A stretch of DNA of 64,000 nucleotides from Clostridiales bacterium (lineage in GTDB: Bacteria > Bacillota > Sulfobacillia > RBS10-35). Positions 23,557 through 53,559 of this stretch are shown piece after piece. Every line of letters starts with the position of its first letter. Within the stretch, counting starts at the first letter, position 1. Made by a program: the position numbers and the translations under genes. Below the pieces are notes generated by a model. The model was not told the origin of the DNA. It made no database searches and was given only the letters and a program-made list of their open reading frames with translations. The DNA is taken from assembly GCA_018729555.1 (NCBI GenBank), contig JAHHQG010000030.1:1-64000 (forward strand). The letters are read 5' to 3'.

Positions 23557-23582
23557 GAGGGGCACCCCCGGCGGTGCCCCTC
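23557..23582. terminator. Perfect hairpin between convergent genes, possible bidirectional terminator (no T-tract)
   Basis: GAGGGGCACC-cccggc-GGTGCCCCTC. Confidence 0.5.
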
Positions 23583-24373
23583 TACCGTCCCAGAAGCTCC
23601 CGAAAGCTGCTCAAAGACATCCCCGGGAACACGATGAGCCGGGGAAGGGCCAGGGGATCGTCTCCCGCCCCCCAGGACCGCCGCTCCACCGTGAAGGCGG
23701 CCGCGATCCCTTCCGCCCGCAGAGCCTCCTGGGCAGCCTTGGTGGTGGCCCCCCAGGGATAGGCGTAGGCGTTGACATAGGGAACTCCGGCCTTGAAAAG
23801 GGTTTCCTTCTCGAGGCGGAGATCCTCCGCCACCTGAGCCTCGCTCCATCCCAAAAGGACCGGCCCATCCCCCTCGTATCGGTGGCCGTGCATGGTGTGA
23901 AAGCCTATCTCCAGGACTCCTGACGCCGCGCCTTCCTTCAGTTCACCGAAGGTCATGTACTGAAGTTCGGGGCTTTGGTACCCGATGCGATCTCCGATGA
24001 CGAAGACCAGGGCGGTGAAGCCGTATTGCTTCAAGACCGGCAGCGCCAAGGTGAGGGTGGAGCGGTATCCATCGTCAAAGGTGATGAGAACCCTTTTCTT
24101 GGGCATATCCTCGCCCGCAAGAACCCTTTGGAATTCCGCAAAGGTCAAGGAACGATACCCCAACCGGGATAGCTCCGCCATCTGAGCTTTAAACTCTCTA
24201 AGGGGCACCACCGCCCCATGGGTGGAAGTATCCGCCGGGGTGATCATGTGGTAGAGAAGCACCGGCACCTTTCCCCCTCCGATGGCCCTGGGGGATGAAG
24301 CATAGGAGAGCCATCCAAAGGAAAGGATGCCCAAAAGAAGGAAGATCAAGGACTCCAGCCAGGACCGATTCAT
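23582..24373 (-). CDS. Polysaccharide deacetylase family protein
   Basis: N-terminal TM, VPVLLYHMITP, VLITFDDGYRSTLTLALPVLKQYG, EIGFHTMHGHRY. Confidence 0.93.
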   Translation of the reverse strand: MNRSWLESLIFLLLGILSFGWLSYASSPRAIGGGKVPVLLYHMITPADTSTHGAVVPLREFKAQMAELSRLGYRSLTFAEFQRVLAGEDMPKKRVLITFDDGYRSTLTLALPVLKQYGFTALVFVIGDRIGYQSPELQYMTFGELKEGAASGVLEIGFHTMHGHRYEGDGPVLLGWSEAQVAEDLRLEKETLFKAGVPYVNAYAYPWGATTKAAQEALRAEGIAAAFTVERRSWGAGDDPLALPRLIVFPGMSLSSFRELLGR

Positions 24374-24470
24374 CGACCTTCGGCGGCGCGGAGACCCCTG
24401 CCTTCAGGTATGGGGAGGAGCGCCGCCTCCCTCCTTTCGTGTTGTGGTATAATTCCTCCAGGACCTTGAC

Positions 24471-24725
24471 AAGCAAGGGTTCCGGAGGTTCTGCCAGCGA
24501 ATCGTCTGGCAGGTAAAACCCTTGGCGTAACCGACGGCCCCGCCCGCGAACAAGGCACCCTTCGGGGAAACGGCTTACCGGCAACGGTGCGGGTGAGGGA
24601 TGGTCCGCCGTCTTGCCAGCGGTGGCATGCCTGCCGCTGGCGGGCCGCCGTCAACCGGCCTATCGTGCCAGCCCGCGCCAGCGGGCTAGGTGCAAGCCCC
24701 TAGCTTTAGCTATGGGGTAGTTGAC
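24471..24725 (+). mobile_element. Solo IS200/IS605-type structured element (omega-RNA-like ncRNA plus right-end hairpin), no tnpA/tnpB/iscB
   Basis: Dense nested stems: AAGGGTT..AACCCTT around CTGCCAG..CTGGCAG; GACGGC/GCCGTC; CGCCCGC/GCGGGTG; ACCG-GCAA-CGGT; GCCAGCGG/CCGCTGGC; AGCCCGC-GCCA-GCGGGCT; terminal CCCCTAGC-TTTA-GCTAtGGGG followed by TAGTTGAC, typical of IS605-family right ends. Confidence 0.65.
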
Positions 24726-25147
24726 CGCTCCTGCTCGTCCTCTTCCTCTCCTTCTTCTTCCTCCGCCCCTCGTTCCGCCTCCGCCCGCAGGCGAAAGAGC
24801 TCCATCACATCTTCTTCCACCAGATCGTCTACCCCGGCCAGGGTCTCCACATGGTGGCGGAGCTCGTGCCAGATGGTGTTTTCCAGCTCGTCCCGCCATA
24901 CCTCGGGCGGTTCGTCCCGAAAGATCTTCCGGAAGGATCCGTAGTAGAGGATGATCATATGACCCAAGTAGGGATCGACGATGTACTCGCCGAGATGATA
25001 GACGCCCGGTGGATCGGTGGGTTCCCGCCGGGCTTCCCTGGAGAGCTGGATCCCGCCGTGAAGTTCCCTCAGGAGGACTTCGGGGACCTTTTCCAGGATC
25101 TCGTCGGCCCACTCAGCGAACTGGGAAAAGGATACGTCTCCTTCCAT
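24710..25147 (-). CDS. Zincin-like metallopeptidase family protein
   Basis: NTIWHELRHHVETLAGVDDLVEEDV (HExxH), IILYYGSFRKIF; last codons (..STTP*) fall inside the mobile-element right end. Confidence 0.85.
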   Translation of the reverse strand: MEGDVSFSQFAEWADEILEKVPEVLLRELHGGIQLSREARREPTDPPGVYHLGEYIVDPYLGHMIILYYGSFRKIFRDEPPEVWRDELENTIWHELRHHVETLAGVDDLVEEDVMELFRLRAEAERGAEEEEGEEEDEQERSTTP

Positions 25148-28566: not shown

Positions 28567-28950
28567 CTACCGATCCAACCAAAGATAGCCCACGGCAAAC
28601 CCGGCGCCGATGGCCACCAGGCCCAGGACGATGCTGCTCCCCAGGTAGAGGAGGGCCATACCCACCTCATGGTCGCGGAGAAGGGCCAGGGTTTCCCACT
28701 GGAAGGTGGAAAAGGTGGTGAAGGCGCCGATGAGCCCGCTCATGATGCCGGCCCGCACCCAGCTGGGGGCCAGCCCCACCTCGCCGTATACCCCCAGGAT
28801 GCCCAGCACAAACGTCCCCGCCAGATTGACAAGGAGCGTTCCCCAGGGGAACCCCTGGCTCACCTGGGCCAGGGCCAGGGTCAGGGTATAGCGGCCGAGG
28901 GCGCCGATAGCGCCCCCCACCGCCACCCACAAGAGGGTCATGCCGCTCAT
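28567..28950 (-). CDS. crcB: Fluoride efflux transporter CrcB/Fluc
   Basis: VAVGGAIGALGRYTLTLAL, PWGTLLVNLAGTFVLGIL, GLIGAFTTFSTFQWETLALL. Confidence 0.96.
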   Translation of the reverse strand: MSGMTLLWVAVGGAIGALGRYTLTLALAQVSQGFPWGTLLVNLAGTFVLGILGVYGEVGLAPSWVRAGIMSGLIGAFTTFSTFQWETLALLRDHEVGMALLYLGSSIVLGLVAIGAGFAVGYLWLDR

Positions 28951-28970: not shown

Positions 28971-29001
28971 CAAAAATGGCTCCTCCCGTGAGGGAGGAGC
29001 C
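28971..29001 (-). terminator. Intrinsic terminator controlled by the fluoride riboswitch
   Basis: Minus strand GGCTCCTCCC-TCAC-GGGAGGAGCC-ATTTTTG; 5' arm contains the riboswitch pseudoknot strand. Confidence 0.9.
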
Positions 29002-29043
29002 ATCACCGCCTGACCGGCGGAATTAGGGCGAGCTCCATCGCCC
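28994..29043 (-). promoter_or_regulatory. Fluoride riboswitch (crcB motif aptamer)
   Basis: Minus strand GGGCGATGGAGCTCGCCCTAATTCCGCCGGTCAGGCGGTGATGGCTCCTCC; matches crcB-motif layout GGGCGAUG..CGCCC-[hairpin]-UGAUGGC with pseudoknot GGAGC/GCTCC, directly upstream of crcB. Confidence 0.95.
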
Positions 29044-29080
29044 GAAGGATAGGGCCCTCTCGTCCGAGGGGTCCCTTCGG
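29042..29080 (-). other. Inverted repeat between csp stop and fluoride riboswitch
   Basis: CCGAAGGgacCCCTC ggac GAGAGGGccctatCCTTCGG. Confidence 0.6.
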
Positions 29081-53379: not shown

Positions 53380-53464
53380 TGGTGCGGAAGGTGGGACTTG
53401 AACCCACACGGCTTGCGCCACACGCCCCTCAAACGTGCCTGTCTGCCAGTTCCAGCACTTCCGC
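53380..53464 (-). tRNA. tRNA-Leu (anticodon GAG), CCA encoded
   Basis: GCGGAAGTGCTGGAACTGGCAGACAGGCACGTTTGAGGGGCGTG...TGGGTTCAAGTCCCACCTTCCGCACCA; anticodon loop TTGAGGG, long variable arm. Confidence 0.95.
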
Positions 53465-53471
53465 ACAAACT

Positions 53472-53559
53472 TGGTGCCGAAGGTGGGATTTGAACCCACA
53501 CGAGCGCGAGGCTCACGGCGCCCTGAACACCGCGTGTCTGCCAGTTCCACCACTTCGGC
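53472..53559 (-). tRNA. tRNA-Leu (anticodon CAG), CCA encoded
   Basis: GCCGAAGTGGTGGAACTGGCAGACACGCGGTGTTCAGGGCGCCG...TGGGTTCAAATCCCACCTTCGGCACCA; anticodon loop TTCAGGG. Confidence 0.95.

Follow-up and report, generated by a model that had tools for sequence, protein, structure and literature searches.

The stretch of DNA analysed here (the window, 64,000 nucleotides of a Clostridiales contig) contains at 24455-24730 of the plus strand a sequence that the first-pass annotation had read as an omega-RNA with an IS200/IS605 right end and no nuclease gene. This raises the question of what kind of element the locus is, which nuclease its RNA belongs to and how such an RNA is kept. The folding energy of this stretch was -139.5 kcal/mol, with z = -3.4 against shuffles (z = -2.45 for the minus strand); folding, repeats in the host genome and covariation in a 35-sequence alignment (see below) confirmed that the structured stretch is real and located where it had been placed. 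The true extent of the element was set by comparing flanks between copies and is 24374-24725, the left end lying about 80 nt upstream of the start given before. In the 5' to 3' direction the element comprises a left-end hairpin, an extended -10 promoter-like sequence, a structured RNA of about 265 nt, a right-end hairpin and a GTTGAC end. The 352 bp contain no transposase or nuclease gene, tnpB being reduced to its last 26 codons (stop included). The target, ends and coding remnant are:

24369-24373, plus strand: target/TAM TTCAT left of the insertion; [T/C]CAT in related insertions and at an empty site of the sister species G012
24374-24725, plus strand: whole element, non-autonomous IS200/IS605-type, 352 bp; the C35, C16 and C25 copies have the same extent and other flanks
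24395-24415, plus strand: left-end imperfect palindrome CCCCTGCC-TTC-AGGTaTGGGG, conserved in copies and found directly upstream of TnpB genes
24612-24689, plus strand: what is left of tnpB, its 3'-terminal codons LASGGMPAAGGPPSTGLSCQPAPAG-stop, doubling as omega-RNA stems; C-terminus identical to that of the tnpB remnant of G012 (C139)
24720-24725, plus strand: right terminus GTTGAC, predicted cleavage site, where the scaffold ends and the guide follows; similarity between copies stops here

A search of the host genome (2.27 Mb, 70 contigs) yielded four full copies, namely that in the window (contig C24) and those on C35 (99.7-100% identity), C16 (98%) and C25 (88%), together with fragments on C50, on C49 and at the start of C25. 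Flank comparison showed that the flanks of the host copies are unrelated. The C49 fragments were considered as a full-length relative with a coding insert, and this was rejected, the insert being host sequence in an inverted duplicate: a host ORF is present at 220-1494 and 1537-2460 of locus L007 as an exact inverted duplicate around a right-end fragment of the element, a pattern due either to misassembly or to rearrangement at the element.

The insertion sites defined the target. In 22 of the 25 related sites read, [T/C]CAT stands directly 5' of the element, and in the sister species G012 the dnaE site is empty, with TTTCAT followed directly by the right flank and no target duplication; the element thus inserts 3' of a short fixed target without duplicating it. 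The counterpart of the insertion site in the window was also located in G012, its junction being too diverged for base-by-base reading. These flanks replace the TTGAC-type target proposed earlier. Since the TTGAC at 24466-24470 is internal and unconserved in relatives, it is neither an element edge nor a TAM, and the second TTGAC lies at 24721-24725 instead of 24720-24724. Insertions often adjoin the ATG starts of minus-strand genes (24373 in the window; dnaE in L004/L032; position 2776 in L007), because [T/C]CAT reads as ATGR on the opposite strand; in the window, TTCAT is at the same time the reverse complement of the start codon of a minus-strand deacetylase ORF (23582-24373). Effects of such insertions on the expression of dnaE and other genes are possible.

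Both ends of the element are homologous to those of IS200/IS605 TnpB elements. The left end (CGGCGGCGCGGAGACCCC...GGGG) immediately precedes TnpB genes on two plasmids of Allomeiothermus silvanus and on host contig C69, where the TnpB gene behind it runs off the contig, and the right end was found after the TnpB genes of relatives. The remnant at 24612-24689 closely matches the TnpB ends of G218, Gloeobacter and G011, and G012 (C139) carries the left end, a tnpB with its middle deleted and the right end. Since the ends and the C-terminal codons are those of TnpB elements, the sequence identifies the element as a TnpB-element derivative that has lost nearly all of tnpB. For the same reason its guide RNA is read as TnpB-type, encoded on the plus strand with the guide downstream, and not as IscB/HEARO. 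The related copies next to tnpB that the first-pass annotation had asked for thus exist, and its TnpB-like version of a nuclease-less omega-RNA is upheld by them and by strong covariation. A plain deletion derivative was also observed in G014 (L109, contig C179), in which the left end is joined directly to the zinc-finger end of tnpB; the same genome has a related full TnpB C-terminus elsewhere (L110).

The promoter-like sequence of the left end, which places the predicted RNA start at about 24460, the features of the 3' half and the flanking guide are:

24445-24453, plus strand: extended -10 promoter-like sequence TGGTATAAT, read in the sequence
24615-24641, plus strand: P7 hairpin GCCAGCGG...CCGCTGGC; pairing in 90% of cells, with two-sided changes at four pairs
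24643-24647 with 24656-24660, plus strand: omega-RNA stem 1 (covariation helices 5-7; ISDra2 plan)
24650-24655, plus strand: GTCAAC of the stem 1 loop, which pairs in a pseudoknot with GTTGAC at 24720-24725; compensatory changes
24665-24669 with 24689-24693, plus strand: omega-RNA stem 2 (covariation helices 5-7; ISDra2 plan)
24671-24676 with 24681-24686, plus strand: omega-RNA stem 3 (covariation helices 5-7; ISDra2 plan)
24697-24717, plus strand: right-end hairpin (stem 4) CCCCTAGC-TTTA-GCTAtGGGG, read in the sequence
24726-24741, plus strand: predicted guide CGCTCCTGCTCGTCCT, assigned by the TnpB rule; flanking DNA, antisense to the 3' end of a zincin-like ORF

TANAAT-like boxes occur at the corresponding place in relatives of the element. 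In the cryo-EM structure of the ISDra2 omega-RNA, the loop of stem 1 forms a pseudoknot with the nucleotides that immediately precede the guide, and a UUUA hairpin lies near -20 (PMC10097598). The predicted RNA of our element reproduces this plan, with the TTTA loop at -21 to -18 of the right end (UUUA at -20 to -17 in ISDra2). The pseudoknot was paired in 167 of 180 cells over 30 copies, compared with 146 after shuffling (0/20000), and in solo copies alone in 104 pairs compared with 91.6 (0/20000), the pairs being read by eye and a few solo copies with a truncated or unclear right end being left out. Compensatory sets in relatives include GTCAGG/CCTGAC, GTAAAC/GTTTAC, GTCAGT/ACTGAC and GGCAAC/GTTGCC. 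The likeness to ISDra2 of Deinococcus radiodurans extends to the overlap of the RNA with the 3' codons of tnpB and the right end (PMC10097598, PMC8612924), and to the downstream-flank guide and left-flank TAM. The two differ in that our element is without tnpB, that its scaffold measures about 82 nt from stem 1 (116 nt in ISDra2), and that it has an extra 5' domain of about 140 nt and a predicted promoter of its own in the left end that would drive the RNA. TnpB elements take their guide from the DNA that follows the right end, and the left-flank target serves as their TAM (PMC10097598); the downstream guide suggested earlier for a TnpB-like element (CGCTCCTGCTCGTCC...) is thereby supported, with a predicted start at 24726. 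A pattern of TAM plus guide, with up to 3 mismatches allowed, matched the host's own genome at this flank only, so the natural target would be the vacant insertion site.

Upstream of this scaffold, solo copies share a further RNA domain of about 140 nt (24474-24612):

24474-24481 with 24517-24524, plus strand: P1, which encloses P2; 103 of 112 cells paired, 95 when shuffled (4/20000)
24491-24497 with 24506-24512, plus strand: P2 hairpin; 106 of 112 cells paired, 77 when shuffled (0/20000), the arms of P1 and P2 being read by eye and one 5' arm (G006, C148) lying partly outside the aligned stretch
24533-24538 with 24607-24612, plus strand: P3; all six pairs changed on both sides
24542-24547 with 24589-24594, plus strand: P4, tentative; only 66% paired
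24558-24567, plus strand: P5, UUCG hairpin CCC-UUCG-GGG, read in the sequence
24577-24588, plus strand: P6, GNRA hairpin ACCG-GCAA-CGGU, read in the sequence

The UUCG and GNRA loops and the terminal hairpin noted at first pass are therefore all present in the sequence. Two covariance models were built, R1 for the 5' domain plus scaffold and R2 for the whole 5' domain. R1 gave 42 matches in 7 of the 13 genomes of the order, most of them without a TnpB zinc-finger frame, and in a 399-genome sample of the phylum one further genome, G218, which has one solo copy and one TnpB copy; the solo copy contains P3-P6 and is without P1-P2. R2 gave 40 matches in 6 genomes, and none of these matches fell within an intact TnpB-coding copy. 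A pattern scan of genome contigs returned 62 matches, and the RNA model confirmed only those in the MAGs TL1-3.bin6 (JAJZXK) and YP3.bin25 (JAKAUG); the remaining ones are other sequence. Rfam searches of the element and its relatives matched no family. Elsewhere in the window, a fluoride riboswitch just above the cut-off (28987-29051, minus strand) lies upstream of a CrcB-like ORF (28567-28950, minus strand), and two adjacent tRNA genes are at 53383-53559 (minus strand).

In an alignment of 35 sequences, 89% of cells were paired and 24 of 39 pairs had changed on both sides. The covariation score was 0.300, compared with 0.110 for shuffled sequences and at most 0.074 for slid structures; this alignment was fitted to the model and is biased towards it, a bias lessened by the slid and shuffled controls and by the separate arm counts, and covariation as such does not distinguish an RNA structure from one in single-stranded DNA. 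The P3 and P4 arms of the divergent G009 copies had been misaligned by MAFFT, and were anchored and then realigned with the covariance model. The covariation check was thus strongly positive in the alignment, the pseudoknot and P2, and modestly so in P1. Since about 40 related loci in the order covary strongly, the structure is not the product of random decay. Of the earlier proposal of a decayed element, one part holds, in that plain deletion derivatives exist in relatives; simple decay does not account for everything, because TnpB-coding relatives lack the conserved, covarying domain that makes up the 5' half.

The R2 matches in G011 belong to a second class of solo elements, which are gene-less, IS200-like and about 450 nt long (L226-L231, on contigs C51, C47, C390, C144, C383 and C105) and carry the P1-P2 module. 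In their 3' half they resemble a decayed IS200-like TnpA element on host contig C25 (L032, 1265-2050), whose non-coding 3' region (CGGGATGTTGTAGCG...) they match at about 62% identity, and an Rfam search of these elements gave no match. Because it is also found in this second class, the P1-P2 module is modular. In place of a part of the transcript that the tnpB coding sequence once supplied, the 5' domain would probably keep the RNA stable or recruit shared machinery.

The locus thus has TnpB-derived ends, copies with differing flanks, a conserved covarying structure and a TTCAT target. We consider it probable that it is a TnpB-less guide-RNA element, which kept the full TnpB-type scaffold, gained a structured 5' domain and parasitises TnpB and TnpA in trans, this trans use being what we infer. 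The readings that compete with it differ in what they make of the RNA. Were the element a passive MITE- or PATE-like derivative, that is, an internally deleted TnpB element moved by TnpA via its ends, the RNA would have no present role. Plain deletion derivatives do exist nearby (G012 C139 and G014 C179), and an IS605 element of Halanaerobium hydrogeniformans that resembles palindrome-associated transposable elements (PATEs) carries the final 58 nt of tnpB between its left-end hairpin and its right end (PMC7290912). However, structure is under selection in solo copies, including the pseudoknot tested on solo copies alone, and the 5' domain is supplied by no TnpB element and would not be created by plain deletion, so this reading is unlikely. 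Somewhat less likely still is that the structure works as single-stranded DNA in transposition, or regulates TnpA/TnpB expression, and is not a guide. Transposition of IS200/IS605 elements does proceed through single strands that carry terminal hairpins, and P1-P2 is also found in the G011 class, whose 3' half is of TnpA type and not a TnpB omega-RNA; against this, the pseudoknot, stem 1 and UUUA hairpin match those of the TnpB-bound omega-RNA, and the promoter-like sequence and the GNRA and UUCG loops point to RNA.

The two other alternatives are far less plausible. A position next to start codons, that of the deacetylase (24373, minus strand) and, at the C25 copy, that of dnaE, would suit an ordinary cis-regulatory leader of a neighbouring gene, but the [T/C]CAT target explains this coincidence. 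In addition, no plus-strand gene follows closely behind the element, flanks are unrelated among copies and the site is empty in a relative, so that this check, also named at first pass, spoke against a leader, which is very improbable. The IscB/HEARO version of the first-pass reading, with an omega-RNA on the minus strand and the guide upstream, did not survive the search with HEARO (RF02033) and is the least credible of all. The weak minus-strand match, mainly to the terminal hairpin, reached 18.6 bits (E 0.09) against a cut-off of 83, whereas a true HEARO in the same genome, which served as a positive control, scored 144.5; the host does carry an IscB element, yet the coding remnant and ends of the element are those of tnpB, on the plus strand. 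The GTCAAC-hairpin terminus of HEARO resembles the reverse complement of our right end, and the two RNAs differ in nuclease, strand and guide side. The host HEARO RNA (144.5 bits) lies with an intact-looking IscB gene on contig C35 (L029, 44-1706), about 3 kb from a solo copy. Standalone IscB omega-RNAs have been reported.

Under the preferred reading, as a TnpB-less guide-RNA element, transcription would start from the promoter in the element's own left end and continue beyond the right end, so that every copy would acquire a guide of its own from the flank. This RNA would be bound by a TnpB encoded at another locus, which would cut TTCAT plus guide wherever the insertion site is vacant, be it through excision or on a sister chromosome; repair would then copy the element back, with movement depending on a TnpA likewise supplied from elsewhere. 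Retention via TnpB borrowed in trans is the simplest account, and the supply of a cognate TnpB its weakest link; persistence through TnpA alone would be possible. G010 (MAG TL1-3.bin6), which has two intact cognate TnpBs and more than ten solo copies, is the only relative in which intact partners were seen. Of a cognate TnpB of the host, only 83 N-terminal residues at a contig end (C69) are assembled, and a right end that matches stands at the start of contig C25. The tnpB relatives of G006 and G218 are interrupted or incomplete, and G009 and G007 have only distant or fragmentary ones. Since these are draft genomes, the absence of an intact TnpB is weak evidence. Y1 transposases are present in the host.

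In the open-licence literature, only PATE-type elements and RAGATH-18 were found as precedents for standalone or trans-acting TnpB guide RNAs. Our element shares with PATEs the combination of ends and last tnpB nucleotides, the lack of transposase and nuclease and a predicted movement in trans, and differs from them by the covarying RNA domain of about 140 nt between the ends and by forming a multi-copy family over several genera. RAGATH-18, the reRNA of IS607 TnpBs, adjoins a TnpB gene at 64% of its loci, and at about a third it does not (PMC11061315); the likeness is that of a TnpB guide-RNA class with part of its loci apart from the TnpB gene, and the difference that it belongs to the IS607 family and is a different RNA. 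The open-licence literature gave no precedent for a family that spans several genera in multiple copies and conserves an extra 5' RNA domain. The new part is therefore the large conserved 5' RNA domain, ends-only PATE-like relatives being already known.

A bolder extension, which we put forward tentatively and hold to be rather doubtful, is that these elements are a distinct, actively selected class of hyperparasites, in which P1-P6, with P1-P2 shared with the TnpA-type class of G011, would be a portable RNA domain recruiting TnpA, TnpB or both in trans, and gene-less elements would outcompete their autonomous parents. The extra 5' domain of the solo family is a natural long scaffold, open to tests of guide-RNA stability or recruitment. 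Cas12 descends from TnpB, whose guide RNA is normally carried within the nuclease gene itself. Were a family of elements indeed to keep just an enlarged guide RNA under selection, it would make trans use of TnpB directly testable and would illustrate the separation of guide RNAs from their nucleases, which has been proposed as a step in the origin of the guide RNAs of CRISPR systems.
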